A stretch of 21,950 nt of DNA from a virus. The notes beneath the pieces are model-generated. The model made no database searches and was not told the origin of the DNA. It saw nothing but the letters and a program-made list of their open reading frames with translations. Shown here one piece after another: positions 1,947-21,221 of the stretch. Position 1 is the first letter of the stretch. Each line of letters opens with the position of its first letter. Made by a program: the position numbers and the translations under genes. The stretch is taken from positions 1-21,950 of IMG/VR virus record IMGVR_UViG_3300033141_002206; one strand, given 5' to 3'.

Positions 1947-4900
1947 TTATAATTCTGTTAGACGAACTTTAATTTTCCAGTCAACTGTTTCAGCATCGTT
2001 GTCGAGAGTTATTGTTAGGTTTCCACTACTGACACCCATGGTGACATCCCAGTCAACAGAAGCGCCACCATCATCGGTTCGATCCTTCGCGCTCGATCCT
2101 ATGAGTGCGGCTGTACCGCCTGTGTTTTCTACGCCACCAAAAATTCTGAATGCAGCGGATTCGGTTCCACTATCCTGACGAGCAACAGCGAAGACTTCAT
2201 AGACTGTGCTATCGCCAGATGTAAGAGGAATGGTTGCTATGAGAGCAGAGGCACCAGTTGAGTTGGTTGCGATGTAACCCTTTATAGTTTCGATAGCTCC
2301 TGCGGTACCGGTTTCGAGGACAATAGCACCATTATTATCAGCAGTATCACCTTCACCAGCGATAATAGTTACATCACCACCAGCACCAGATGTAGCACCA
2401 CCGTCACCAGCGTTGATGGTTACAGCACCACCCGCAGCGTTGATGGTTACAGCACCACCCGCACCAGTAGCACCACCACTAGCAGCGAAGATGCTAACGG
2501 GACCACCAGCACCAGTTCCTTGACTACTACCAGCAGTAAAGTAAAGAGCACCACCGGTTTGATCCGTTCCGTAACCACTACCGGCATATATTGAAACATT
2601 ACCACCAGTACCATCAACCGGAATACCACCGTATATCCCAACGTTGCCACCGTTACCAGAGGTTGCACCACCGGCACCACCCAGAATGTAATTACCACCA
2701 CCGGCACCGGTTGTGTTACCTGCACCAGCCGTTATGTTGATAGGATCACCCGGGTTGGTTGCAGCAACACCGGCTGCACCGATAATAGAGTAACCGTTTA
2801 CATCGAGATCGCCACCGAGTTGGGGAGTTGTGTCTTCGACTACGTTGGAGATTCCGCCACCACCGAGTACCGTATCGGTACCAGCGTCATCAGTGAATAC
2901 TAGAACGTTCGGAGTATCACTCTTAACCCATATCTCACCGAAGGTGGCTGTTGGAGTTCCGATGTGATCGGCACGTTCCTTGAACCGTAGCGATCCACCA
3001 AAATGAACTGCCTTGGTAGAGAAGTCACCACTAATTAATGGATCGGCAGCACTGACGTTGTTTATGATAAGTTGATTGCTTCTTACTCCAGAAACACCGT
3101 CGCCTGCATTGACGCCGAGGGTTACGTTATTAGAAGAGGCACCTGTGAAGCCGTTGCCCGAAGTACGACCAATGAATGTGTTATTCGATCCTGTTGATAA
3201 ACTGGAACCAGCGGTGAAGCCCAACATTACGTTATAGCTGGCACCGGTTTGTAGGAAGCCACCAGCACCGTCACCTATAGCGGTGTTGTTTTGCATACCA
3301 CCGGAGGTATTGAATCCCATTACACCCTGACCAATAGCGATGTTACCACCACCAGTGATCGAACCAGTACCACCCAGAGCATCCTGACCGATAGCAATAC
3401 AGTCATCACCACCAGCAAGTGCGTTACCTGCATTAAATCCGATAGCAATACAATCGGTACTGTTAGCTACACCCTGAAAGGCTGAAGTACCAATAACGAC
3501 ATTCCGACTACTGTTGGTCATGGTGCCGGTAGCGGAGTCTCTACCTATGACAACATTATCAGAATTGATGGTTATTCCAGAACCAGCATTCTCACCGATC
3601 AAAATATTATCTGATCCGGTAGTTAACCCAACACCAGCACCGTCGATGGCTAGAAAGTTATGATCACCAGAACCAGTGAAAGTACCAGAGTGAATGTTGT
3701 TAGTGCCGGTCTCTGTGAATATGCCGTCCGGTACCACTTGGAATGTTGGTGCTGCACCGGTTCCGTTACTGGTAAGAACATGAGTTGCTGTTCCCACCAG
3801 AACTGTTGTCGCTACGCCAGCCGCATCCCAAGTAATAAGTTCGCCGTCTGTGCCATCATCCAAATCGGAAACCGCAACAGAAGTAAGAGGGGCAATTGCT
3901 GGAACTAATTGACCAAACAATACCCACGACGTGGCAGTGATTTTCAATGCGGTCGCAATACTGTTTTGACCATTCATCACCAGAGTTGCGCCAGAATTAA
4001 TCAATAATGTGTCGGTTGTGATGCCGACGGTTACCGCACCCGCACCCAACTGTTGGAAGTTCAGCTTGGTACCGATTGGGTAAGCAACCGATGCGTTGGC
4101 AGGAATTGTCATTGCAATTGCCGCAGCATTGGTTAGTGTAATAATCTTGTCTGCATCAGCCAGTACTGCGGTATACGTCACGCCTACCTGTGCATTAATT
4201 GTTGCTGGATATGTAGCATCGGTAATTGCAAAGCCCTGACCATCTAACGCGCCACCAAGTTGTGGAGTCGTATCTTCGACGACAGCAGAAATACCACCAC
4301 CGCCAGTATCGAGGGTAGTTCCGTTCCACGAAAGTACACCACCGACGCTGTATAATTTGTTTGCAGGAGTAGTTGGGGCAATCGAGTCAGGAATAACAAC
4401 AGCACCAGCAGAGCCCGCACCAGCACCCAGACCAGATTGTAATGTGATGTTACCACCGTCGCTGTTACCACCTCCAGCAGCACCACCGTAAACGGTCACG
4501 CCACCACCGGTACCCGATGTAACGCCACCACCGGAAGCTCTGATAATAATCGCACCACCATCACCAGTTGTTCCGGCATAACCACTATCAATAGTTACGT
4601 TACCACCACTGTAGGTAGTACCTGAACCACCAGCCATAAGGGCAACATTACCACCCTGAGCATTACCGATACCTGCGGCAAGAGTTATATCACCGGCAGC
4701 ATAGCTACCGTATCCCTTACCTGCATTCAGGTCGATGTTGCCGCCGTCACCGTCAGAACCACCACTAGAACCAGCATTAATTCCGAGATCGCCACCATCG
4801 CCAGTGCCGCCACCACTACCGGCACTAATCGTAAGTGCACCACCATCACCAGTTGTTCCACCACCGTTGCCGGAGATTAAATTAACGCTACCACCGTCAC

Positions 4901-5018
4901 CGGTTGTGTTACCAGCACCCGCAGTAAGACTCAGGTCTTCTCCTGACACTCCCGCAGAAGGACCAGCCGGAGTAGTCAGTACACCCGCTAATTCGATATC
5001 ACCAGTACGCTTTGCCAT
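1947..5018 (-). CDS. Large modular tail-fibre-like virion protein (1023 aa)
   Basis: Residues of about 30-210 are a Gly-rich array of some ten rungs (GDGGxhxIxAGxG). A KLYSVGGVLSWNG linker (221-233) and a VVEDTTPQLGG unit (246-256) follow. Residues of about 270-370 resemble the phage fibre domain that begins with a YTAVLADADKIITLTN-type strand and has a polar IPANASVAYPIGT turn. Residues of about 455-640 carry repeated NxxIGxxAG units (NILIGENAG, NTFIGRTSG), a repeat known from phage fibres. A second TPQLGG unit and rung array span about 728-890, and a beta-rich C-terminal domain ends in KIKVRLTEL. The start is supported by AGGA 11-12 nt upstream. It sits 17 bp after the 5036-8254 gene and 13 bp before the next, an apparent virion-gene operon. 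The role as a fibre or decoration protein is inferred from family resemblance. Confidence 0.85.
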   Translation of the reverse strand: MAKRTGDIELAGVLTTPAGPSAGVSGEDLSLTAGAGNTTGDGGSVNLISGNGGGTTGDGGALTISAGSGGGTGDGGDLGINAGSSGGSDGDGGNIDLNAGKGYGSYAAGDITLAAGIGNAQGGNVALMAGGSGTTYSGGNVTIDSGYAGTTGDGGAIIIRASGGGVTSGTGGGVTVYGGAAGGGNSDGGNITLQSGLGAGAGSAGAVVIPDSIAPTTPANKLYSVGGVLSWNGTTLDTGGGGISAVVEDTTPQLGGALDGQGFAITDATYPATINAQVGVTYTAVLADADKIITLTNAAAIAMTIPANASVAYPIGTKLNFQQLGAGAVTVGITTDTLLINSGATLVMNGQNSIATALKITATSWVLFGQLVPAIAPLTSVAVSDLDDGTDGELITWDAAGVATTVLVGTATHVLTSNGTGAAPTFQVVPDGIFTETGTNNIHSGTFTGSGDHNFLAIDGAGVGLTTGSDNILIGENAGSGITINSDNVVIGRDSATGTMTNSSRNVVIGTSAFQGVANSTDCIAIGFNAGNALAGGDDCIAIGQDALGGTGSITGGGNIAIGQGVMGFNTSGGMQNNTAIGDGAGGFLQTGASYNVMLGFTAGSSLSTGSNNTFIGRTSGNGFTGASSNNVTLGVNAGDGVSGVRSNQLIINNVSAADPLISGDFSTKAVHFGGSLRFKERADHIGTPTATFGEIWVKSDTPNVLVFTDDAGTDTVLGGGGISNVVEDTTPQLGGDLDVNGYSIIGAAGVAATNPGDPINITAGAGNTTGAGGGNYILGGAGGATSGNGGNVGIYGGIPVDGTGGNVSIYAGSGYGTDQTGGALYFTAGSSQGTGAGGPVSIFAASGGATGAGGAVTINAAGGAVTINAGDGGATSGAGGDVTIIAGEGDTADNNGAIVLETGTAGAIETIKGYIATNSTGASALIATIPLTSGDSTVYEVFAVARQDSGTESAAFRIFGGVENTGGTAALIGSSAKDRTDDGGASVDWDVTMGVSSGNLTITLDNDAETVDWKIKVRLTEL
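2698..2857. repeat. Direct repeat, copy B (shared fibre cassette)
   Basis: This is the partner of 1641-1800. It encodes residues of about 721-774 of the 1947-5018 protein and is in the same codon phase as copy A. Recombination between the copies would therefore delete 1057 bp and join the two fibre genes in frame. Confidence 0.75.
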
Positions 5019-5035
5019 TATTATTATATCCTAAT

Positions 5036-8000
5036 TTATGAAACGACCACGTTCCAAGTTCCCGTTAGGGTACCGAAACTAGTCAGGTCTATTGTTGTGA
5101 CAGATGTGCTTGTGGCTGTTACGCTGTCGGGCTGAACAATGATAGCGCCGTTGTCATACACTGTTACGTGATTGTATCGGCGACCTAAGCTGTGCGTTAC
5201 TGTAAGAACACCAGCGGTCAGATCACTATCATCGAATGCTTCGGTGTATTGGTTAACGGCTGTTAAGTCGATACCATTCCAGTTAAGTGCACCCGATACG
5301 CTGTACAGTTTGTTGGTCGTAACAGATGGGGCGGTTTGATCAGGAAGAACAACGGAACCAGCACTACCAGCAACGGATGTACCTGCTGTTAGGATAATGT
5401 CACCACCATCTCCCGTTCCTGCTGCCGTAACGTCACCAGCATCAAACGTAATATCACCACCGTCTTGTGTTCCAGCGGAAAGATTACCGGCACCGGCAAC
5501 TATTTTACCCGGTACGCCGGTTGTTGAACTGCCAATTTGAATAAAGATATCACCCGATGAAGTACCATTACCAGATGTTAGAGATACACCACCACCACCT
5601 GTGCTACCTACACCACCTTTGATGTTTATACCACCGCCGTTTTGACCGGTTGCGTTACCACCAATAATATCAACGGCACCACCACTAGAGAATGATCCCG
5701 TAACATCACCACCACCAATCTTTATATCACCACCAGCTTGCTCGTCGCGATCACTGGTACCACCCTCGATAACAACTGATCCGCTATAAACGGTTCCGCC
5801 ATTAGGCCATTTGGTTGATACGTTAGTGAGCGTGGATATGTTATAACCATAACTACCAGCACCCGAAGAAATACCACCTTGAATGTGAACAACACCAGAT
5901 TCCGCGTTATCGTTCGCAGACGTTACCGCACCACCTTTTATCTCGACGTGTCCAGCTTGTGCATAAGCCGCAGCGGTGTTATTTGCACCACCTGTTATTT
6001 GTACGCCACCACGATAAGCTGCGTCGGTTGATTCACCGGCTGTGATAGAAATATCACCACCACTATAACCAGCGGCACCGATGAGAGACACAACACCACC
6101 AACACCAGTTGCACCACCAGCACCAGAGACTAAGGATACACCACCACCATCACCCGTGGTGTTACCGTCACCAGCCGTTAGGTTAATAGGGGCACCAACA
6201 GTCGTTGCTACGTTAGCAGCCGGTAGAGCTACAACCAGACCGCTTGACGCGATTGTCATTGTGTTTGTGTTAAGAGGGAATCCAACCGGTGTAGCACCAG
6301 TGTTGAAACGAATTGTATCATCGTCAGCAGCAGCTTCTACGTTAACGGATGTATCACCATCAGCATCGACAATGGAGTTAACCGGAATGGCACCAATTGA
6401 GTCGTCAACGTACTTCTTGTTCGGTACGTCGTTGTCAGCAAGAACCAGCGTCTCGTAGGATGCAGTACCGACCGAAACCGTACCGTCGCTTTCAACGCTA
6501 AGAGCATCATTTCCGCCAACAGCGAAGCCAATACCACCAGAACCATCGTTATACATACCCGTGGTTGTGGCACCTTCGAATGAATAGCTTGGATCACCAA
6601 CTGCACCAAAGTTCGGTAGGAAGTGATCGGCATATACATCACGCATCTTGAGACCGGTAGAACCGATATCTTGCGTTGCAGTAGCAGCAGGAGTGATCGC
6701 AGTTGTGGAATAATTCCATGTAGCAGCCGCGTTAAGTACGAGACTCAATGTGCCTGCACCAGCAGTTTGGTGTAGACCAGTATCTAGGTCACCATCGAAC
6801 GAGTAAGTCGGAGCAGTCGCAGTAGATGTGTCACCGACAATCTGAATGCCAGCAGAACCTATGGTGATAGTACCAACCATGATTCCACCAGACAGCGGCA
6901 AGAATGCACCACCACCACTAGATATCGCAGAGAAGATAAGAGGATCAGTTCCTAAAACAGCATCGTCTGATGGCTGAACCAAAACAAATCCTACTCCAGC
7001 AAGAGTTGCACCGTCTTCTACGAAAGAGAACATACCACCAGAAACTTCACTGGATGGGCTGTTGTCTGCATCAGTTGCGCGAGTTAATATCCATGCGGTA
7101 CCACCAGCGATTCCGTCGATGGCTACAGTAACAGTGAATCCCGAAGTTGATGGGTTTGCGTTTGTAACTGCTCCTATAACATTATTGACAAGATAGAACG
7201 AATTGTTTTCATCATCATATGCAACAGTTGCCGCACCAGATACGTTGATAGCTGCAATCGTAGCATTTTTGACATCTTCAGCAGAAGCAGCGGTCGCAAT
7301 AGCAACTGTGATTCCTGTTCCACCCGGGGTCGGATCACCGGCACCAGCGGGGGTATCATACCAAACGTAGAAACCTGTGGTATCATCATTGAATCTAAAA
7401 TAGGTTCCATCCAAACTATTGGCAACGTCAGCTATCGTAACAATTTCCGTAACTTCTTCACCAGTACCAGTATCAGTGATTTCGTAGATACCATTTTCTA
7501 CTGGGTCTGTTTGGTCTTTAACGAGAACACGGGTACCAACAGAATAGTGGGCGTGGTTATCCGTAATAGCCGGAGGTAGAACACCCGGTCCTGTAGCTGT
7601 CAGAGTAGCACCTAGACCGAGAGTACCGTTGTCATAGGTTGAAGAAAAAGTAGCAACCGTACCCATGTGGCACGATTCCTTGAAGTCGATTCCTGAAGCG
7701 ATTTGGTCAACGTAAGACTTGGATGCGGCTTCGGATGCGGTTGTCGGATTAAGAGGCAAACCAGTAATGGTATTGCTACCCATTGTAATACCACCAGTCA
7801 TCAAACCACCAGACAACGACAGTTGTAGATTGTCTTGGTCGTTTACATATTTTTTGTTTGTGATTACGGTGTCGGCGTCAACCAATGCTTCATACGCAGC
7901 AGGGACACGAAGACGACCGGTGTTTTCCAAAGTCAATGCAGTGGAATATGCAATAAGCGTCTCAGTGGAATCGACCATCATTACGCGATTGGCACTACCC

Positions 8001-8254
8001 ACTTTACTAGGAGGCGTGTCGGCTAATGCGTCAAATGTTGGAACAAGACCTGTTTCAAATGGTACCCAAGAACCGTCAAATCCTTCGAACGAATTGATTT
8101 GAGTATTGAAACGCATGTGACCCAAAGCAGGGCTCGCTGGTCGCTCTCCGGTGTTACCACTCGGAAGAATGATACCGGCAGGACCGTAAAATCCAATCAA
8201 GTCAGGATCGGTTCCGAAAATCTCAAACTGCCAGTATTGCTGTTGGTTCGCCAT
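5036..8254 (-). CDS. Large modular tail-fibre-like virion protein (1072 aa)
   Basis: The N-terminus has a segment common in tail fibres: GHMRFNTQINSFEGFDGSW, then LGSANR-type and NKKYVNDQ/SKSYVDQ segments (about 40-190). A conserved fibre domain beginning GIDFKES runs from about 188 to 450, but it is interrupted at about 262-384 by a second domain (DGTYFRFND...FYVWYD). Two 'YSFxGDxDTGx' hairpins occur near 484 and 557. A GG-centred rung array covers about 690-960. The C-terminal 75 residues (QYTEAFDDSDLTAGVLTVTH...GTWNVVVS) match a widespread phage fibre C-terminal domain. The gene has its own putative late promoter 33 nt upstream and lies just beyond a terminator, so it likely begins a transcript that continues into the 1947-5018 gene. 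Confidence 0.87.
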   Translation of the reverse strand: MANQQQYWQFEIFGTDPDLIGFYGPAGIILPSGNTGERPASPALGHMRFNTQINSFEGFDGSWVPFETGLVPTFDALADTPPSKVGSANRVMMVDSTETLIAYSTALTLENTGRLRVPAAYEALVDADTVITNKKYVNDQDNLQLSLSGGLMTGGITMGSNTITGLPLNPTTASEAASKSYVDQIASGIDFKESCHMGTVATFSSTYDNGTLGLGATLTATGPGVLPPAITDNHAHYSVGTRVLVKDQTDPVENGIYEITDTGTGEEVTEIVTIADVANSLDGTYFRFNDDTTGFYVWYDTPAGAGDPTPGGTGITVAIATAASAEDVKNATIAAINVSGAATVAYDDENNSFYLVNNVIGAVTNANPSTSGFTVTVAIDGIAGGTAWILTRATDADNSPSSEVSGGMFSFVEDGATLAGVGFVLVQPSDDAVLGTDPLIFSAISSGGGAFLPLSGGIMVGTITIGSAGIQIVGDTSTATAPTYSFDGDLDTGLHQTAGAGTLSLVLNAAATWNYSTTAITPAATATQDIGSTGLKMRDVYADHFLPNFGAVGDPSYSFEGATTTGMYNDGSGGIGFAVGGNDALSVESDGTVSVGTASYETLVLADNDVPNKKYVDDSIGAIPVNSIVDADGDTSVNVEAAADDDTIRFNTGATPVGFPLNTNTMTIASSGLVVALPAANVATTVGAPINLTAGDGNTTGDGGGVSLVSGAGGATGVGGVVSLIGAAGYSGGDISITAGESTDAAYRGGVQITGGANNTAAAYAQAGHVEIKGGAVTSANDNAESGVVHIQGGISSGAGSYGYNISTLTNVSTKWPNGGTVYSGSVVIEGGTSDRDEQAGGDIKIGGGDVTGSFSSGGAVDIIGGNATGQNGGGINIKGGVGSTGGGGVSLTSGNGTSSGDIFIQIGSSTTGVPGKIVAGAGNLSAGTQDGGDITFDAGDVTAAGTGDGGDIILTAGTSVAGSAGSVVLPDQTAPSVTTNKLYSVSGALNWNGIDLTAVNQYTEAFDDSDLTAGVLTVTHSLGRRYNHVTVYDNGAIIVQPDSVTATSTSVTTIDLTSFGTLTGTWNVVVS

Positions 8255-8286
8255 GGTTGGTTATTCCGTGTTTATTATTCTAATGT

Positions 8287-8294
8287 TATTTATC
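8287..8294 (-). promoter_or_regulatory. Putative T4-type late promoter
   Basis: The minus strand reads GATAAATA, one mismatch from the T4 late consensus TATAAATA that is recognised by the phage sigma factor gp55. It lies 33 nt upstream of the ATG at 8254 and directly after the terminator at 8305-8328. The same motif-to-ATG distance is seen at 12319-12326. The motif is short, so the call rests on position and recurrence. Confidence 0.5.
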
Positions 8295-8304
8295 TAAAAA
8301 TAAA

Positions 8305-8328
8305 AAGGGGAACCAACTGGTTCCCCTT
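8305..8328 (-). terminator. Rho-independent terminator after the 760-aa fibre gene
   Basis: A perfect 10-bp stem, AAGGGGAACC / GGTTCCCCTT, closes a 4-base AACT loop. On the minus strand it is followed by a T-rich tract (TTTTTATTTTT, counting the end of the stem). It lies about 30 bp past the stop of the 8360-10642 gene, so it ends that transcript before the 5036-8254 gene. The + strand side has a weaker T-rich tail. Confidence 0.9.
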
Positions 8329-8359
8329 CTTTGTTGGAGCATGAACAACTGCGTTCGGA

Positions 8360-10642
8360 TTACAGTTCGTAACCTAAGCAGATGATGTCAAGGTCGAACG
8401 AGTCGAGGTTCGCCAGAGTTCCGACGTAAGCAGTCAAGACTGCACCAGCGGCAAGTGCTTGGTAAGCCGCACCACTCGCACCCGAGATAGCAGGGAAGGT
8501 GTTGTCACCAGCGCCCAAAGGCATAACCTGCATGGCAGTATCAAAGTCATACGTACCGGGGTTGAAGATAGTCGTGTTCGTGGTGTTATCCACGATCTCG
8601 TCGTAAGTTGCAGCGGTAAAACCGATGTTCAACTCAAGGGTGTTGTTGCCCGGAGGACCACCTACGTAACCACCACCACCGACGACCGCTTGGGTCAGAC
8701 GGATAAGGACTTGCGTAACGATTGCAGAGCGACCAGCAGGAACGGTGTAAATCGGAGACGACTTAGGAGCCACCGCCGAAGTTGCACCAGCAGAAACGGA
8801 TACACGACCCAGTTCCTTGATACCTTGGAAGATACCAGAGATTTCAACCGAGTGGTTACCAGCGATAGCGCCACCAAGAACGATTTCACCAGCGGTGTCG
8901 TCGAACTTAGCCATCTCAGTACCACCAGCGGCGATACCAACGGAGTCAGCACTGATACGGTACATACCCGAATCTTCGTCACCGACGAACGACCATGTTG
9001 GGTCAGTTTCGCCCATACCAGAGTGCTTAGCCAACGGCTGACCAGAAGTCAACGCGTCACCAATTTGCATGTTGGTTCCGTCAATGGTTGTAGCACGTGT
9101 GCCAGCAACCGTGATACCAACACCGGTAGCACCAAAGAGGTACAGACCAGAGTTGTTGGAAGAGGCATAGCCAAGTCCCGGAGCAGCAGCGGTTCCGTCG
9201 AAGATGTAGATCGCACCAGTGAAGGTACCACCAGCAGCCGTAATAGAACCAGCAGCGAAGGCGTCGATCTGAGCCTGAATGTTCGAAGCCGCGCCAGACA
9301 GATAGTTCAGTTCGGTAGTCGTAATAGACGCACCAGTGATTTCCGCGATACCGATAGTATCAGCAGTGTTACGTTTGGAATCCAACTGATCCTGAATGTT
9401 TGCATTCACGCCGTTCAAGTGGGCGATTTCCGCAGACTGGATAGCACCAGCAGAGTATGCGCCAGTACCAGCGAAGGCACCACATAGCAAGTTCAGGTCG
9501 TCAACCGAAGAGTTAAGACCAGTTAGCGGAGTGATCGAGTCCAAAGCTGTTTGAACGTTCTCTGACAGACCAACGAGGTGTTGGAATTCACCGAAGTCTA
9601 CACCAACCGATGCGATACCGGCGATGCCGTTAACGTCACCAGCAGTTGCCGATGTACCAGAAAGGATGTTGATGTCAGCAGCAGTAGCAATCATACCATT
9701 CAGTGTGTTGATTTCAGCAGCAGAAGCAGTGATGTCGCCGAGCTTAACAAAGTCAGCAGCAGTCACGTCACCAGCAGTACCAGCCAAAGCATTCAGGTCA
9801 GCAGACGTGGCGATAAGACCAGTGAAAGCTGTGTTCAAGAATGACAACTGAACCGTAGGAGTAACGTCGAAGAAGAAATTGAAGTCGGTAGCTGAGACTG
9901 TAAGACCAGTCAAGTCAACACCAGCGCCGTCAACCTTTCCATCAAGCTGACCTTGGATACCACCGGATGCACCGATGAGTAAGTTGAGTTCAGAAGCACT
10001 CGCATCAACGTCAGCTAGCTTGTTAAGGTCAGCACTTGTCAGACCGTATGAGTCTTGACCAGACAACAGGTTAAGGTCGCCGATGGTAACACCAGCAAGA
10101 GTGATGGCTTCAAGAATCGCGTCGTGCTTAGCTAGCTCGTCAGTAACAGTACTGTTAAAGTCAAGAGCGTAAACAACGTCGTCAGAAGTGATAGACGGAA
10201 CCGTTGCAGCAGCAACGTGTACGAAAGCACCGACAACCGTTGTAGTACTTTGAGCAGTTACTACAGAAGTAGCCTGTACAAGAGAAGTACCAGCACCACC
10301 AACAAGACCGCCGTTGTTACTGTCACCAAATACAGAAACCTGACCAGAAGATACAGCAGAAAGAACTGCTTGCATACTGGTAGAGGAATTTTGAATGTAT
10401 AGAGTAAACGGACCAACGTGTCCAGTGAAGTCGATAGTTGCGATGACTGCGAAGTCACCAGCACCCGGTGAAGGTTTGTTAGTACCACGGATTTCCAAAG
10501 TACCCGTCAGCGGTACGCCAGAAGCAGGGTTGATTTGGATGAGTCGGATTCCATTACTACCCGGAAAGGCAACAATTGGTCCAGTACCACCCGGAGCAGG
10601 TGCAGCAGCACCAGTTTGCGAAAGCATCTGTTGGGAAGCCAT
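8360..10642 (-). CDS. Tail-fibre-like virion protein with ELNxL repeats (760 aa)
   Basis: Residues of about 1-150 form an Ala/Gly/Ser-rich, beta-predicted N-terminal domain. From about 185 to 460 the protein carries many short repeats with the pattern (A/S)xxLNxLxG, such as ASELNLLIG, SADLNALAG, AAEINTLNG and TTELNYLSG, interspersed with NIQxQLDxK segments. This repeat is common in shafts of long phage tail fibres. A 'TWSFVGDEDSGMYRI' hairpin near 549-563 matches the YSFxGDxDTG hairpins of the 5036-8254 protein. The last 140 residues form a beta-rich domain that may be the exposed tip, ending in DIICLGYEL. The start has a strong AGGAGA site 10-11 nt upstream. No adhesin specificity or peptidase motif can be read from the sequence. 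Confidence 0.85.
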   Translation of the reverse strand: MASQQMLSQTGAAAPAPGGTGPIVAFPGSNGIRLIQINPASGVPLTGTLEIRGTNKPSPGAGDFAVIATIDFTGHVGPFTLYIQNSSTSMQAVLSAVSSGQVSVFGDSNNGGLVGGAGTSLVQATSVVTAQSTTTVVGAFVHVAAATVPSITSDDVVYALDFNSTVTDELAKHDAILEAITLAGVTIGDLNLLSGQDSYGLTSADLNKLADVDASASELNLLIGASGGIQGQLDGKVDGAGVDLTGLTVSATDFNFFFDVTPTVQLSFLNTAFTGLIATSADLNALAGTAGDVTAADFVKLGDITASAAEINTLNGMIATAADINILSGTSATAGDVNGIAGIASVGVDFGEFQHLVGLSENVQTALDSITPLTGLNSSVDDLNLLCGAFAGTGAYSAGAIQSAEIAHLNGVNANIQDQLDSKRNTADTIGIAEITGASITTTELNYLSGAASNIQAQIDAFAAGSITAAGGTFTGAIYIFDGTAAAPGLGYASSNNSGLYLFGATGVGITVAGTRATTIDGTNMQIGDALTSGQPLAKHSGMGETDPTWSFVGDEDSGMYRISADSVGIAAGGTEMAKFDDTAGEIVLGGAIAGNHSVEISGIFQGIKELGRVSVSAGATSAVAPKSSPIYTVPAGRSAIVTQVLIRLTQAVVGGGGYVGGPPGNNTLELNIGFTAATYDEIVDNTTNTTIFNPGTYDFDTAMQVMPLGAGDNTFPAISGASGAAYQALAAGAVLTAYVGTLANLDSFDLDIICLGYEL

Positions 10643-10711: not shown

Positions 10712-10745
10712 TAATACACACAGAAAGCATGTTCCGAGTTGAGTG

Positions 10746-11129
10746 ATGCAAATCTACCAAGGAAAACCCTGCAATAGTTGCGGCAAAACAGAGAGGTACC
10801 GGTCTAACCGGAAGTGTATCGCGTGCGCCCGAAAAACATCTCGGGAATTTCGTCAGGAAAACCCAGACCAGCACGTGGCTCAGCAAACGTCGTACCGAAA
10901 TAATAAGTTCATCAAGCGTGCAACTCCCGTGTGGTCAAATAGCAATGCTATTAAACGATTGGAAGCAGAAGCGAGACGATTAGAAGCTCAGATGGGGATA
11001 CCCATGCACGTGGTACATGACATACCCATACGCGGGCGTAAGGCGTGCGGGCTCCATGTGGAGGATAATTTAAAGATTGTATCTCGGTCGTGGAGAAATT
11101 TACGGCGTGGGTTTAGTTCCACTGAGTAG
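10746..11129 (+). CDS. Zinc-ribbon protein with degenerate HNH-type nuclease domain
   Basis: The protein has 127 residues from the ATG at 10746; a GTG one codon earlier is also possible. Residues 9-27 hold a four-cysteine zinc ribbon (CNSC...CIAC). The C-terminal half (59-121) follows a phage HNH-endonuclease pattern: a VWSN segment, an AIKRLEAEARRLEAQMG helix, then HVVHDIPIRGRKACGLHV and NLKIV. Related enzymes normally have HVDHI at this point. Here the metal-site aspartate position is valine, while His91 and the later CGLHV and Asn residues are kept, so activity is doubtful. The gene is on the + strand inside a block of leftward fibre genes and its last 17 bp overlap the end of the convergent 11113-11862 gene. 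No clear promoter or strong ribosome site is visible. Confidence 0.75.
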   Translation: MQIYQGKPCNSCGKTERYRSNRKCIACARKTSREFRQENPDQHVAQQTSYRNNKFIKRATPVWSNSNAIKRLEAEARRLEAQMGIPMHVVHDIPIRGRKACGLHVEDNLKIVSRSWRNLRRGFSSTE

Positions 11130-15404: not shown

Positions 15405-15737
15405 ATGAGCGACGGTAGAAGTGACATTGTAATAAAATTCGGATCACCGGTATATCTCGGGATCGGAGTGCTGTATCACCTTATCACTTCGGACATTCCC
15501 TTTGCGTGGAGCGACCCGTGGTTGTATATTACCATGGCACTTTGGCCGTTCATGTTACTCGGATGGTTTATCCTAATCGCTTTCGCCATATTCGTCATAT
15601 GGGTTATCTGTTTATGGTTTGATGAGCATTCCAAAAAATGCCAGAAACGCGAAAAACTGGCAAAAATTAGAAAGGAAAGCGAGCAACGAAAGGAGCGCCA
15701 ACGCATAAGAGCGTCAGCGCCCCCTGAACAGCCTTAA
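15405..15737 (+). CDS. Small inner-membrane protein with basic tail (110 aa)
   Basis: Residues 15-30 form a weak hydrophobic stretch, and about 39-72 (YITMALWPFMLLGWFILIA, then FAIFVIWVICLWF) form a long hydrophobic region of one or two membrane helices. The C-terminal 35 residues are strongly basic and helical (KKCQKREKLAKIRKESEQR), likely cytoplasmic. GGAG lies upstream of the ATG, 3 bp after the 26-residue peptide. The stop overlaps the convergent vWA gene by 4 bp (CTTAAG), with no terminator seen between the opposing transcripts. A role at the host membrane is inferred. Confidence 0.75.
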   Translation: MSDGRSDIVIKFGSPVYLGIGVLYHLITSDIPFAWSDPWLYITMALWPFMLLGWFILIAFAIFVIWVICLWFDEHSKKCQKREKLAKIRKESEQRKERQRIRASAPPEQP

Positions 15738-16474
15738 GCGTCAGTAACCGTATCCGATGGATCGGGAACCGGTGCGTCTTCTGTAACACCAGCATCGCTG
15801 AAGAACGAAGTCGTCGTATACGAGCCTACCAAACCACCTGCCTTAGCAGTGCTTGACATGCCACGGTACGCTACCGTTGATGCAGCAACCTTAGCGAATG
15901 CACCTTCCTTGATATCAGCAGCCGCGTAATTCATTACGTTGCCTTTCTGAAAACCAAGGTCTTGCGTTTCTTCCCAAGAGTCCTGATTGGCACCCATGTA
16001 TATGAATGTCCATCCATCTTCTTCGCGCTTCGTGATCATCTCTTTAACGAGACCAGTACCATAATTCCGCGACGTGTTCTCACCACCATCAGTGATGATA
16101 ACAACCAACGTATCAGGGCTCTCGGTCTTGACCGTCTTCAAGATGTCGTCGGTCTGGCTGATGCCATTACCGATTGCATCACGCAATGGAGTACCGCCAC
16201 CGACCTTGTAAACTTCACGCGTCAGTTCCGGCACTTCGTCGAGCGGGAGCGCTGTGTACGGACGTACCAATCGGAGATCGTTGCCCCAACCAGAATCGAA
16301 CAAGACGAGAGAAACGAGAACATCGCCGTCCTCTTCCCGCTGCTTAGTGATGAAGGCATTGTATCCTTCCAGCGTTGCAGCAACTATGCCACCCATCGAA
16401 CCCGATGCATCAATAATAACAGTGATGACGGTATCGGCTTCTACTTTCTTCTTTACTACTTTTAAATTTTCCAT
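15734..16474 (-). CDS. von Willebrand factor A (vWA) domain protein with intact MIDAS
   Basis: The protein has 246 residues with a vWA fold covering about 13-185. The metal-ion-dependent adhesion site is complete: DASGS at 22-26, the threonine in GGGTPLRD (Thr95), and the aspartate in ITDGGEN (Asp129). Such domains bind a divalent metal and use it to grip a partner protein. The remaining 60 residues are Ala/Ser/Gly-rich with a disordered acidic tail (APVPDPSDTVTDA). There is no signal peptide. GAGGAT supplies the ribosome site. It lies 21 bp after the 328-residue gene, on the same strand, so the two are likely co-expressed and may work together. Its place beside the neck genes suggests a virion or assembly role; the partner is unknown. 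Confidence 0.9.
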   Translation of the reverse strand: MENLKVVKKKVEADTVITVIIDASGSMGGIVAATLEGYNAFITKQREEDGDVLVSLVLFDSGWGNDLRLVRPYTALPLDEVPELTREVYKVGGGTPLRDAIGNGISQTDDILKTVKTESPDTLVVIITDGGENTSRNYGTGLVKEMITKREEDGWTFIYMGANQDSWEETQDLGFQKGNVMNYAAADIKEGAFAKVAASTVAYRGMSSTAKAGGLVGSYTTTSFFSDAGVTEDAPVPDPSDTVTDA

Positions 16475-16495
16475 TGAGTTAATCCTCAGTTAAGT

Positions 16496-17482
16496 TTATG
16501 AACGTGTCTTTCTACGAGTGCGACCAGTCCACCCACTTGGAGCCGTGGCATAGCCAGTAACCTCCGGTGAATCAGGGAATGGATTTGGAGCACTGCTTAC
16601 AGCTTCGGAATAGTGTCGATTGAAATGCTGGACAGGTACACCAACCTTTCGAAGATTCTTCAGCGTGTCGTAGTAAAATGCGAATGCCGCACATGGATTT
16701 AATTCACGTTCAAACTCAACCTTCTGAGTCTCAAACTCAACTGCATCACCGAAGCCCGTTCCAAGGGACTTTCCGTCATCAACGTCCATAGAGTCATAGG
16801 TAATATTAACATTGTTACCTAAACTATCCATCGTGTCGGTTGACGACACACCAGCACTCGTAGTCGTAAACGTCGGACTACTAGATATGCCATCACTACC
16901 AACAACGCTCCCTGTGAGAACGTTACTAGCGTAAGCGTGATTAACATCAAGAACACTTCCAGAAGCACCACGTAACAAATCGTTAGGCGGATTCCCCGTA
17001 CCGTTACCGCTCATGTCAAACATGGACTTGCGGGTTGAGGACTTCATACGGTTGCCCGCATAGGACTTTCGGACTCTAACTTTCCGATGGAATACCATGA
17101 AGCCGAGGGCTCCTTGGTTGGACGAATCCGCTTCAATCTCTTCAGCATAGGTTTGCTCATCGCTCCAGTACGCGCCTTGCGCATGGAAGACAAACTCCGC
17201 CGCCTCCTGTCCGTTCACAGTCCATCCGGGAATGGTTATATCACTCCAAGGATCGACAACGTAACCGGGAGACTGCTTGCCCGCGCTCTCACCGTCGATG
17301 ACAGACATGCCATCCACAGACGGAACTACAAGAACTTGCATATGGGAATTGTTGCGGAAATATAGCTCGTAAGTTGTTTTCTTACGACCTTCGATGTAAG
17401 TCTGTCCGTTGTGGACGACTTCGGTGACTGGCTTACCATTAACTAAAACGCAAGCCTCGAACTCTCTAGTCGAGTTATACAT
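16496..17482 (-). CDS. Conserved viral-type protein of unknown function (328 aa)
   Basis: Residues of about 8-115 form a beta-rich domain with a distinctive pattern: VNGKPVTEVVHNGQTYIEGR, then NNSHMQVLVVPSVDGMSV, DGESAGKQSPGYVVDPWSD and IPGWTVNGQEAAEFVF. I have seen the same 'VDGxxVxDGxxA...GYVxxPxxxxxIxGW' pattern in uncharacterised proteins of large phages and giant viruses, but cannot name it. Residues of about 150-235 are low-complexity Ser/Thr/Gly, and the C-terminus is basic (TGRTRRKTRS). GGAGAAA lies at a good distance before the ATG. It is immediately upstream of the vWA gene, making that protein the obvious candidate partner. Confidence 0.75.
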   Translation of the reverse strand: MYNSTREFEACVLVNGKPVTEVVHNGQTYIEGRKKTTYELYFRNNSHMQVLVVPSVDGMSVIDGESAGKQSPGYVVDPWSDITIPGWTVNGQEAAEFVFHAQGAYWSDEQTYAEEIEADSSNQGALGFMVFHRKVRVRKSYAGNRMKSSTRKSMFDMSGNGTGNPPNDLLRGASGSVLDVNHAYASNVLTGSVVGSDGISSSPTFTTTSAGVSSTDTMDSLGNNVNITYDSMDVDDGKSLGTGFGDAVEFETQKVEFERELNPCAAFAFYYDTLKNLRKVGVPVQHFNRHYSEAVSSAPNPFPDSPEVTGYATAPSGWTGRTRRKTRS

Positions 17483-17671
17483 GATACTTTCTCCATTGTA
17501 CTGCCGGAGGACTTCAATGGCCTAACTGAACACGCTAGGGCTTACCGCCTACGGACTTTTATCGCGGTGAAAAACTCGAAGAAGTTAAACACCTACCTCT
17601 ATATATAGTTTCCGCGTAGTCGATAGTCAAGAAACTCACTAAATACCCGTACCAGAACGGAGAACAATCGA
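17483..17671. other. Divergent intergenic region between the 328-aa gene and the neck genes
   Basis: These 189 bp separate leftward and rightward virion-type genes. They hold the candidate late promoter at 17638-17645 for the rightward side, a CTATATATAG palindrome near 17598-17608, and a weak ACCGC/GCGGT inverted repeat around 17550-17575. No clear promoter for the leftward gene and no small reading frame were found. Confidence 0.5.
17638..17645 (+). promoter_or_regulatory. Candidate T4-type late promoter of the neck genes
   Basis: The + strand reads ACTAAATA, keeping the TAAATA core of TATAAATA but differing at the first two bases. It ends 26 nt before the ATG at 17672, a plausible leader length, with GGAGAA as ribosome site in between. 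Confidence 0.4.
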
Positions 17672-18505
17672 ATGCCGACTATGCCCACGGGTGGACCAAA
17701 CGCTGAACTCACTCAGCCAGCCGACCACGAAACCAATACACCAGAGACACATCGCCTGCTGGAACGCATGTACCATGACAATTTTATTCGTCTTGGTGGT
17801 TCTAGCATCCCTGTCCATCTGGAAGACGATGACTACAGCGTAGCGTGGCGTATGGCAGTGGACTGCTACCGCCAAATGGGTAGTGGCTCCGTCTACAAAG
17901 CATGGACAGTAATTCATACAGACCCGACCGTTCAGGAATACATCTTGGATGAGCGTGTGGATAACGTGATTAAAATCTGGAGAAGCCGTGGACTCTTCGG
18001 AGGACAAGCCGGTGGCTCGGGTGCCTTTGAAAGTTTCGGCGCAGCCACAGCCAACACACTGCTTCGTGGAGGCATTGGGCAGAACGGCGCATCCTTCGAT
18101 TTAGTATCCTATGATTTGGTTCTCCAGTATCAAGAAACCCTAGACCGATTATTCGCCCGGGAAATGCAATTCGTATTCCGTACTGAAGCCAACTCATTAT
18201 ACCTTCTCCAAGTTCCACAGGCTCCCGAAGAAATTCTGGTCGAGTCTATGGTCCTTAAATCGTACATCGAATTACTCAAGGATCACTACGCCGCACGTTG
18301 GCTCCGTGATTACCATCTCGCTGAAATGAAAATTACGCTCGGCGAGAAGTACCGTGTGTTCGCGACCATTCCGGGTGCACAGGGTGGTACCACTATGAAG
18401 GGTGAGCAGTTGGTATCGGAAGGAATACAAGACAAGCAACGGCTCGAAGATGACCTACTTCTTTACGTCGATGGTGGTATGGTACCGCAACCGATTCGGG
18501 GATAA
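17672..18505 (+). CDS. 13: Neck protein, T4 gp13-like
   Basis: This 277-residue protein fits the gp13 neck family of T4-type phages, which seals the DNA-filled head at the portal and receives the tail. The family-like parts are an N-terminal LEDDDYSVAWRMAVDCYRQ region and, most clearly, the C-terminal segment with WLRDYHLAEMKITLGEKYR, the IPGAQGGT loop and GEQLVSEGIQDKQRLEDDL (about 208-268). T4 gp13 is 309 residues, so the length is close. Gene order (followed by gp14- and gp15-like genes) agrees. GGAGAA lies 8 nt before the ATG. Distant homology, judged by pattern, leaves some uncertainty. Confidence 0.8.
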   Translation: MPTMPTGGPNAELTQPADHETNTPETHRLLERMYHDNFIRLGGSSIPVHLEDDDYSVAWRMAVDCYRQMGSGSVYKAWTVIHTDPTVQEYILDERVDNVIKIWRSRGLFGGQAGGSGAFESFGAATANTLLRGGIGQNGASFDLVSYDLVLQYQETLDRLFAREMQFVFRTEANSLYLLQVPQAPEEILVESMVLKSYIELLKDHYAARWLRDYHLAEMKITLGEKYRVFATIPGAQGGTTMKGEQLVSEGIQDKQRLEDDLLLYVDGGMVPQPIRG

Positions 18506-18508
18506 ATC

Positions 18509-18631
18509 ATGAAGTGGCTTGACAAACTTAACGAAAGAGCACCAGACGACTTTAAGCTCAACCTATTACACACTGTGTTCTGGGCTGTGATCATTGGTGT
18601 CGGGTTTGGTGTCGTGGTGGTGCTCGGATAA
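18509..18631 (+). CDS. 40-residue single-pass membrane peptide between gp13 and gp14
   Basis: The frame runs from ATG 18509 to TAA 18629-18631, whose last base is the first base of the gp14-like start (TAATG). The first 20 residues are polar and charged (MKWLDKLNERAPDDFKLNL) and residues of about 21-40 form one membrane helix (HTVFWAVIIGVGFGVVVVLG). The GATAAATC context before the ATG gives only a weak ribosome site; coupling to gp13 translation is likely. The exact fit between flanking genes supports a real gene. The role is unknown. Confidence 0.7.
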   Translation: MKWLDKLNERAPDDFKLNLLHTVFWAVIIGVGFGVVVVLG

Positions 18632-19887
18632 TGCCTAAGTTTACACCAAAAAATCCATTCACTTGGTTCGCTAAAGACACGGACGGTCCTTCCCATTTCG
18701 GAAACCAAACCAAAATGAGCCGATTCACCAGCGACCTTATTAAGATGCACATCGATATGGGTGGCGTCGATGTCAATGTGTACCGATTCAAAGGAACGTT
18801 CGTTCAGGACGAAGACGAATTCGGCGTTAAGAAAGACCCGCACGGCGTCGATACCAACGACGAAGAAAACCTATTTGACGTGGACGACCAACGAGAGAAT
18901 CCATTCGGTCCGAAACACGAAGGACCAACCGATGTTGGATCATTCTTGGGCGTTCAAGATACCGTACTAAACGAAAACCGCGACCGCGAATATGACTTCG
19001 ACGAGATTCCGGTTCTGCGTGTAACCTATACAATCAGCCAAAACGAATTGGAGTACGCACGATTCGGTATGGCTCTGGCAAACGATGTACTGACAATCGA
19101 AGTCCACACCGAAGAAATGGAAAAGCAATGCGAACGCCGACTAGCACCGGGTGACGTAATCGAGATGCCCCACCTGCGTGAAGTGGGAATCGACGGACGT
19201 GTCGCCAACAAATGGTATGAAGTAAGCTCAATCATCTGGTCCCCGACCGGTATCGATGTGTCCTACGCACGCCACGTGTCCGCAATCGTGCTACGCCCAA
19301 TGCGTCACCAGCAAGAATTCCTCGACCTCTTCCATCGCATGGACGAGTACGGGAAGAATCTTGCCGAACAGATGTCGAACGTCGATGCCATGCTGTCGAT
19401 TACCCAAGCCAACCAAGAGAAGGCTCGCGAGTACGTCAACACTACATGGTTCGACACAACCCTGTTATACTTCTGCCCCGACGACCCAAGCCGCCATCCT
19501 TACCGATGGACTGGCGACGGTGTGCCTGATAATGGCGAGCCGGTTACACAGGGAGCAGACTTCCCATCCGCTCCAGCCCCGGGTGACTGGTTCCTCCGTG
19601 TTGACTTTGTCCCTAACAGACTTTATCGCTTCACCGACACCAACCGTTGGAAACTGATGGAGAAAGATACCAAGCGTGAATGGCAACCATATAACTGGGT
19701 CGTCCAGCTACGCGAGTTCATGTCCGACCGAAGTGAAGAAGACAGAGAACGTCCATGGGAACTGAAGAGTATCCACGACGTATTCACCAGTCGTCACGAC
19801 CGTTCCGATCTTGCCTACGAGGAGAAGACCGAGAACAAGGAACCCTACGAGGTTAAGGAGAACAAGGGAGAGTTGAAAGGTTCATGA
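18631..19887 (+). CDS. 14: Neck protein, T4 gp14-like, with extended C-terminus
   Basis: This 418-residue protein resembles gp14, which with gp13 forms the head-tail connector neck. Matching patterns are SDLIKMHIDMGGVDVNVYRF near the N-terminus, the ARFGMALANDVLTIEV segment, and LAPGDVIEMP...NKWYEV, all in the gp14 order. T4 gp14 is about 256 residues. The extra C-terminal part (about 265-418) contains a PGDWFLRVDFVPNRLYRF...RWKLMEKD domain, which I associate with longer gp14 versions of other T4-type phages, and then a highly charged Glu/Lys tail. The start follows the membrane peptide with a 1-bp overlap, and the stop overlaps the next start (ATGA). Confidence 0.8.
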   Translation: MPKFTPKNPFTWFAKDTDGPSHFGNQTKMSRFTSDLIKMHIDMGGVDVNVYRFKGTFVQDEDEFGVKKDPHGVDTNDEENLFDVDDQRENPFGPKHEGPTDVGSFLGVQDTVLNENRDREYDFDEIPVLRVTYTISQNELEYARFGMALANDVLTIEVHTEEMEKQCERRLAPGDVIEMPHLREVGIDGRVANKWYEVSSIIWSPTGIDVSYARHVSAIVLRPMRHQQEFLDLFHRMDEYGKNLAEQMSNVDAMLSITQANQEKAREYVNTTWFDTTLLYFCPDDPSRHPYRWTGDGVPDNGEPVTQGADFPSAPAPGDWFLRVDFVPNRLYRFTDTNRWKLMEKDTKREWQPYNWVVQLREFMSDRSEEDRERPWELKSIHDVFTSRHDRSDLAYEEKTENKEPYEVKENKGELKGS

Positions 19888-21221
19888 AACTCCAGCACAT
19901 AATGTATGAGGCGCACGAACCATCTGAGAAAGCCAAGTTGTTTCATCAGACGGCGGATACCCAACGTGGACCACCAGAAGCTACGATGCTCAAACTACAA
20001 AACCTCATCGGTGGTGGTGTATTCTCCTTTGCGATAGAACATGTCGGAGACATCACACATCGAATGGCTCAAAAGTTTGACTGGGCTAAAGGGCAACATG
20101 GCATCGTACAGGACAAAGTGGAAAAGACACTGCGAACTCTGGAACATCCCTACGGATTTGATAAAGAGATGCAGGAAAACTTTGAGAGTAATTTCAGATT
20201 CAATACTGAGCAGGGAAGAATGCCATACGATACCTACGAAGGGTTCGAAGGTGCCGCGAGAGGACTTTCGATGCTCTATGCCCGCGAGCATAACAAGATT
20301 CCTGTGTTCAATGCAGCACAATGGCATGCCAGACAGGCAGCAATTGAATTGGGATACTGGAATTTCTCGAAAGCCATCACGCATCTAAAATGGCTCAAAG
20401 ACCTCTGCGATGACGAAGAGCGGTATGACCATGAGGTCGCTCAAGTAACTATAGGGGAGGATGCCGATAGTGGTTTCTACCTGACACAGTTAACTGGCCG
20501 TGGTCCAACCATCTACCCGCTACCAACCAGTGCAGAAAAATATGACGACATCGATTCTCCGAAACGTGGTGGCGCGGATGTTGAAGTACGGGAAGATGAA
20601 GGGACGTGGTACCACGGCTCACCAGAGATACAGAAACTCGGTGATGAGTTCGAAAACCGAACCATCAATATAGACTATTTGACCGACCCTAAGAGATGGC
20701 TGAAGATTCAGGACATGCTCAACCGATATGAAAGCGGCTCCGATGAATACATGAACCTCTTAGACGCTGCGGCAAAATTACGGGCGAACAAGAAAGTACG
20801 GGCTCCGGTGTTCCTGAGCAACAAGCATCCGGTGGCTAACACCTATGCGGATGACCGCCGAGCGTTCGACTATCAGAGTGCCGTACCCGGCGTCGCCTCA
20901 GTAGAAGTAGGCGATGGGAAAACATTAACCATCAACGGACATGGCCAGAATTTCCGAGGGATTTCAATCAACTCGGTACGCGAGGGATTACGCAAAGCCG
21001 GAATTGACGACGAGACTATCAACAATGAAATCCAGAAATTCTCTCATCAAATTCGCGGTGATGGTGGAACGATTTCTACTACCTCCCTTGCAGCTATCGT
21101 GGATGATCTGGGTTTCGACATTATCGACGTAAGAGGGATTAAAGATAATTACATGGGTGACGGCCCGCCTGCTACGGTTCGCATGGTCATGAATCCATCA
21201 CTGATTAGGATAAACAAATAA
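19884..21221 (+). CDS. Two-domain protein with C-terminal ADP-ribosyltransferase-like domain (445 aa)
   Basis: Residues of about 1-215 form a mainly helical region of no recognised family (it includes EHPYGFDKEMQENFES and AARGLSMLYAREHNKIP). Residues of about 240-445 resemble the ADP-ribosyltransferase domain found in phage polyvalent proteins: TWYHGSPE at 241-248, then VFLSNKHPVANTYADDR at 309-325, a long insert, FDIIDVRGIKDN at 411-422 and a final VMNPSLIRI strand at 435-443. By family analogy His244 and Tyr321 would hold NAD; a third catalytic residue is not clear. It overlaps gp14 by ATGA and gp15 by one base, so it should be made late and in step with them. It may be packaged and injected like T4 Alt; this is inference. 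Confidence 0.7.
   Translation: MKLQHIMYEAHEPSEKAKLFHQTADTQRGPPEATMLKLQNLIGGGVFSFAIEHVGDITHRMAQKFDWAKGQHGIVQDKVEKTLRTLEHPYGFDKEMQENFESNFRFNTEQGRMPYDTYEGFEGAARGLSMLYAREHNKIPVFNAAQWHARQAAIELGYWNFSKAITHLKWLKDLCDDEERYDHEVAQVTIGEDADSGFYLTQLTGRGPTIYPLPTSAEKYDDIDSPKRGGADVEVREDEGTWYHGSPEIQKLGDEFENRTINIDYLTDPKRWLKIQDMLNRYESGSDEYMNLLDAAAKLRANKKVRAPVFLSNKHPVANTYADDRRAFDYQSAVPGVASVEVGDGKTLTINGHGQNFRGISINSVREGLRKAGIDDETINNEIQKFSHQIRGDGGTISTTSLAAIVDDLGFDIIDVRGIKDNYMGDGPPATVRMVMNPSLIRINK

Follow-up and report, generated by a model that had tools for sequence, protein, structure and literature searches.

What might a virus gain from a vWA-domain protein whose gene lies next to that of a 328-residue partner (hereafter p328) and beside the neck genes, and do the two genes belong together at all? 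The window analysed here, the 21,950-bp virus record IMGVR_UViG_3300033141_002206, had been described in an earlier note as holding these genes as a co-oriented two-gene unit, and the ORF positions and strands confirm this. The p328 gene (16496..17482, minus strand, 328 aa) lies upstream as first gene of the unit, and after a spacing of 21 bp the vWA gene (15734..16474, minus strand, 246 aa, with a complete MIDAS) follows as the second. Since the gene to the left of the vWA gene is on the plus strand and p328 is divergent from the neck gene that starts at 17672 on the plus strand, the two make up a unit of their own. PHROG matches bear out the presence of neck genes beside the pair in the window: the divergent neighbour (17672..18505, plus strand) is a head-tail adaptor (gp13-like) gene (phrog_211 Ad2, E=1.5e-24), and a virion structural protein gene (phrog_11591, E=1.3e-31) lies at 18631-19887 on the plus strand.

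The metal site of the vWA protein is intact, as had been claimed for it. The DASGSM motif (D22-x-S24-x-S26) is joined by T95 and D129, and the MIDAS residues are kept in 67 of 68 distinct vWA relatives, with S or T at position 24. Its Pfam VWA (PF00092) score of 26.7 bits exceeds the cut-off, 23.8, and it matches phrog_7371, a family of unknown function, over residues 12-210 (E=6e-46). Phage proteins of the phrog_7371/Pfam VWA type have the vWA fold and MIDAS in common with it, but their genes mostly stand without a p328 neighbour, and the paired ones occupy their own part of the tree. Related vWA genes are also found beside a TROVE (Ro60-type)-like protein or PARP gene (L109 975-3021; XacN1 298048-299979).

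For p328, Pfam and PHROG gave no family and NCBIfam a match at chance level only, and among 50,697 phage records its relatives were confined to Phosso, Atu_ph07 (two records) and Rhizobium phage RHph_I1_18. The alignment of 35 p328 relatives contains conserved IEGR, VDG, PGW and YYD motifs and a tail of the form xNPFPG...CxPPxGW, which in the window reads NPFP...PSGW. Motifs of the NPFPG type are found both in p328 tails and at the N-terminus of some vWA proteins and are rare otherwise; an NPFPG/AFPG motif resembling the p328 tail was seen in the vWA proteins of L147 (10780, minus strand), L096 (about 4920, plus strand), L104 and L087.

The AlphaFold2 model of p328, with pLDDT of 90 or more across 159 residues, builds a beta-sandwich from residues 1-133 and strands 240-249 and 265-272, the last two strands being preceded by a disordered insert at about 134-238. 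As a whole, the protein is predicted to have an Ig-like beta-sandwich, interrupted by a disordered insert, and a conserved tail. A Foldseek search of viral models (BFVD) returned uncharacterised marseille-, pitho-, klosneu- and iridovirus proteins, nudivirus proteins and granulovirus P22.2, with E down to 1e-10 for these eukaryotic viruses. DUF7918 (PF25534) likewise has a predicted fold resembling that of p328; the sequence relation is below the Pfam cut-off of 27 bits, with two p328 relatives at 14.6 and 14.3 bits (E about 0.04) and no match for p328 of the window. Sequence searches of the PDB gave no match, and the weak Ig/MSP-like fold relatives of p328 in the PDB (Foldseek E at best 0.015, Z up to 6.6) were set aside as uninterpretable. 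A second partner family adjoins vWA genes from a distant part of the vWA tree. Its own model is of low confidence (pLDDT 54), so the fold it would share with p328 rests on the same strand order, the same BFVD matches and a weak hhalign match (E=4e-5, probability 70). The arrangement of a vWA gene beside a beta-sandwich gene may be older than p328 itself.

The earlier note had reckoned with the chance that the two genes are rarely adjacent in related phages; the reverse was found, and the case for the pair is stronger than the note had made it. IMG/VR profile searches, a six-frame HMM scan and a later RNA-led scan together located vWA and p328 as neighbours in 22 contigs from diverse phages, some of them near-copies (L036/L037, L147/L149), and in both gene orders. 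The p328 gene comes first in six (the window, L005, L007, L036, L037 and L038) and the vWA gene in sixteen (Atu_ph07, Phosso, L011, L012, L019, L021, L023, L024, L058, L059, L087, L096, L104, L147, L148 and L149); in Phosso and Atu_ph07 the vWA gene is directly upstream of p328 and overlaps it. Twenty p328 contigs were searched whole. Eight of them, of up to 608 kb, hold this vWA, in a single copy and in all eight cases as the neighbour, an adjacency far above chance. Such a vWA is absent from the other 12, and p328 can therefore work without it. No p328 was found anywhere in 28 contigs, some of them fragments, that have a vWA without a neighbouring p328. On a vWA tree with 72 proteins, 2 changes suffice for the paired state, against a mean of 16 when shuffled, which indicates that vWA and p328 have been inherited together as neighbours. 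By this comparison of sequences the pair is an old two-gene unit of many unrelated large phages. Because a gp23-type capsid protein was present in 10 of the 15 p328-carrying records tested, we take the p328 carriers to be largely T4-superfamily phages; we found no description of the pair for T4-type phages, in agreement with its having been called undescribed there.

When would the pair be expressed? Of 100 gene starts in a 103-kb relative (L141-L146), 18 have TAAATA at a distance of at most 70 nt, those of the sheath, capsid and tail genes among them, and both strands of 104 kb contain 27 sites in total, a distribution that identifies TAAATA as a T4-like late promoter. In that relative the sequence (A/C/G)TAAATA(A/C/T), mostly 28-55 nt ahead of virion genes, seems to be the late promoter of the window clade. 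The T4-late-like motif CTAAATAC at 17639..17646 on the plus strand is that of the divergent neck gene and lies outside the pair. Beyond the window clade, TAAATA stands at most 120 nt upstream of 12 of 16 pair operons (0.41 expected). The pair of the window clade has no TAAATA in its own direction and instead a conserved TTGAC-N19-TATATA box, seen in the window as a putative promoter TTGACT-N19-TATATA (17600..17630, minus strand), which is a consensus match only and is conserved in four relatives. With TAAATA absent and this box present, the pair of the window clade may not be late. Early expression as a general rule, which the box of the window had prompted, was rejected, as most other operons have TAAATA. 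The late-type promoters of most other carriers fit the virion or assembly role envisaged in the earlier note.

The neck-gene setting holds within the window clade (the window, L005, L007, L036 and L037) and not as a general context. In Phosso and Atu_ph07 the pair adjoins genes for thymidine kinase, ClpS, Hsp20 and ThrRS, in L018 Hsp20 and ClpS are near p328, and elsewhere the surroundings include DNA gyrase, glycosyltransferase, tail-spike and ClpA-type ATPase genes. These differing contexts rule out the neck module as a general rule for the pair, and its neck context is incidental.

The same surroundings bear on the possibility raised in the earlier note, that p328 and vWA form a virion-surface adhesion module. 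A tail-spike gene upstream of the pair in L058 is in its favour, as are the late-type promoters, the intact metal site and collagen-like repeats, a trait of phage fibre proteins, in the p328 insert of L019 and in the second partner family. However, the vWA protein is small, acidic (pI 4.4), free of cysteine and predicted to be soluble, neither it nor p328 of the window has a hydrophobic segment of membrane-span or signal strength, and the latter has no fibre-like repeat; the lack of a general neck adjacency counts against adhesion too. In Atu_ph07 the pair corresponds to gp707 and gp706, with the accessions AUZ95446 and AUZ95445 (gene numbers derived by counting from ClpS gp708), and the main text of the genome description, which places most virion genes in three named clusters, does not name these two and does not include them in the clusters (PMC6102473). 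We found nothing supporting surface exposure or adhesion, and consider such a module improbable.

Alternatively, the pair might be a late module that is no part of the virion and targets the host cell, through superinfection exclusion or through stress or proteostasis control as for Ter-type vWA proteins. The ClpS, Hsp20, thymidine kinase and ThrRS genes of Phosso and Atu_ph07 and the Hsp20 and ClpS genes of L018 would suit this, and so would the variable, accessory-type positions of the pair, the RyR-domain (PF02026) gene directly upstream of vWA in four contigs (L058, L087, L096 and L104) and the vWA gene of RsoM2USA, which stands beside TerD-like and DUF475 genes (PMC8504454). The Ter system (TerF/TerY with TerD) likewise brings together a vWA and a small beta-sandwich protein and occurs in phages. 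Unlike that system, p328 has no sequence match to TerD, and TerD was missing from all 13 pair-carrying records searched, while control genomes were positive in 2. The late-type motif in 12 of 16 operons also argues against a host-cell module, which we regard as unlikely, though by no means negligible. In some of the contigs with the RyR-domain gene an HD-domain gene lies downstream of vWA-p328, and a larger module is possible there.

A further comparison is with the MoxR-vWA chaperone pairs of ATV, haloviruses and group 2.2 jumbo phages, in which a vWA gene is likewise part of a conserved viral gene pair. Viral vWA co-chaperones of MoxR are known (PMC7824862; PMC7911831), and the vWA protein might similarly assist a MoxR-type AAA+ ATPase, with p328 as the client. 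The partner here, in contrast, is a predicted beta-sandwich, and no MoxR-type AAA+ ATPase gene adjoins the vWA gene in the window; elsewhere AAA_5 is not adjacent either, the matches in 11 of 13 pair records being distant, or a Clp ATPase where the protein was inspected (L104), and the 103-kb relative has no AAA_5. A co-chaperone role of this kind is very improbable to us, and as identities for the pair both the MoxR chaperone and the Ter system were set aside for lack of gene support.

How the operon may be controlled is suggested by its leader, a feature absent from the earlier note. A conserved RNA with an outer stem, a CAGUNAAGA-type internal loop on both strands, an inner stem and a loop of about 6 nt ends abutting the Shine-Dalgarno sequence of the operon's first gene. 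In 13 leaders, aligned by hand (the covariance model was built with 10 of them), 62 of 65 outer-stem pairs and 52 of 52 inner-stem pairs are formed, against shuffled means of 45.8 and 36.2; none of 10,000 shuffles, in which strands were swapped among phages, paired as well, and the stems covary, with several pair types per position. The covariance model also found leaders outside its training set (L024, E=5e-5; L038, 1e-3; L036 and L007/L008 weakly). In whole genomes of up to 608 kb it gave one copy in 14 of 14, always directly before the operon, and in 554 kb it had no match before unpaired vWA genes. Of two blind pattern scans of IMG/VR, one returned 4 contigs and the other 69; both stems were formed in only 4 of the returned contigs, all 4 preceding vWA-p328. 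The element is present in L018, which has p328 and no vWA, and is thus tied to p328 and not to vWA.

The copy in the window (17506..17552, minus strand) is divergent from the model, R1, and scores 13.3 bits (E=0.0021 in a 321-base search). It consists of a stem, an internal loop, a stem with a GUGUUCA loop, an internal loop and a stem, upstream of the p328 Shine-Dalgarno GGAG. Its first single-sequence fold gave z=-1.1 and a MAFFT alignment of the window clade leaders was too poor for a pair count; comparison across phages settled the structure. Rfam had no match in the window or at the leaders of eight loci, and at a lax threshold no credible match for two leaders. Judged from this covariation, the pair operon has its own, previously unrecorded folded leader RNA. 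Most vWA-first leaders have a further hairpin, unrelated in sequence, immediately downstream of TAAATA (for instance L019 7245-7280, L059 4870-4892), where the mRNA is expected to begin.

The leaders of T4 gp32 and gp43 are autogenous translational operators, structured RNAs near the ribosome-binding site. The pair leader resembles them in being structured RNA near the ribosome-binding site of its operon, and a covarying structure abutting the Shine-Dalgarno sequence is what marks such an operator; it differs from them in sequence, structure and controlled genes, and is without an Rfam family. A small-molecule riboswitch, as opposed to a protein-bound operator, might also present compact, symmetric and strongly conserved CAGUNAAGA internal loops between variable stems beside a Shine-Dalgarno sequence. 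Single-ligand riboswitches, however, usually serve several genes, whereas this leader is strictly that of one operon, at one copy per genome. The contigs with the RyR-domain gene, moreover, have a one-hairpin variant, in which the 9-mer of the two-stem form is the terminal loop on four perfect, differing stems, and protein operators often vary likewise. We find a riboswitch quite doubtful.

From the conserved unit, the metal site, the leader RNA and, outside the window clade, the late-type promoter motifs, all read from the DNA itself, we tentatively propose, as a reading with not quite an even chance, that vWA-p328 is a late, translationally controlled complex for particle assembly or an accessory part of the particle. 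By analogy to the integrin I-domain and ICAM, we infer that the MIDAS metal would let vWA grip p328 by an acidic residue, for which E21, E31, D63 and D272, kept when paired and relaxed when unpaired, are candidates. Across 17 paired p328s E21, E31, G32, R33, S71 and D272 do not vary, and in 18 unpaired p328s they are relaxed, a contrast confounded by the greater divergence of the unpaired rows. The leader RNA would be a translational operator, in the simplest case bound by one of the operon's own products, and this control would set the amount of the vWA-p328 complex late in infection; the complex would most likely serve particle assembly or be an accessory particle part. Set against this proposal are the 12 p328 contigs without such a vWA, the widely differing contexts, the pair's missing TAAATA in the window clade, the position of the Atu_ph07 genes outside the named virion clusters and the divergence of the leader in the window itself. 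It is conceivable, though less likely than not, that the leader with its symmetric CAGUNAAGA loops represents a new class of phage cis-regulatory RNA, that vWA-p328 binds it and so autoregulates late synthesis, and that the whole is a metal-dependent module, common to T4-like and jumbo phages, with a partner fold that extends to giant eukaryotic viruses.

Two scattered "hypothetical proteins" of many large phages thus become one testable unit, to which is added, as its most novel part, a strongly covarying RNA element found only before the vWA-p328 operon. Both Sinorhizobium phage Phosso and Agrobacterium phage Atu_ph07 possess the complete unit, so that its timing, its presence in virions, the formation of the complex and control by the RNA are open to experiment in laboratory phages. 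Finding the p328 fold in giant viruses prompts the question whether they and the phages share an ancient function.

Several other features were seen along the way. After the neck genes of the window, a 445-aa ORF (19884-21221, plus strand) with no Pfam match above cut-off has a C-terminal half (YHGS...FLSNKHPVANTYA) that reads like an ADP-ribosyltransferase fold, and its homologue in L007 consists of the C-terminal half only (254 aa). Three large glycine-rich repeat ORFs (1023, 1072 and 760 aa; 1947-10642, minus strand) are tail-fibre or collar-like by appearance, with PHROG matches, if any, to unknown or virion structural families only. Between tail-fibre-like genes, a small ORF (10743-11129, plus strand) gave weak endonuclease VII/HNH-type PHROG matches. 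In L005, a close relative of the window, an inserted homing-endonuclease-like ORF (3786-4577, plus strand) separates the tail sheath gene from its neighbour, and the 141-kb pair-carrying phage contig L059 encodes a permuted tmRNA (223-520, plus strand; Rfam RF04321, 75 bits).
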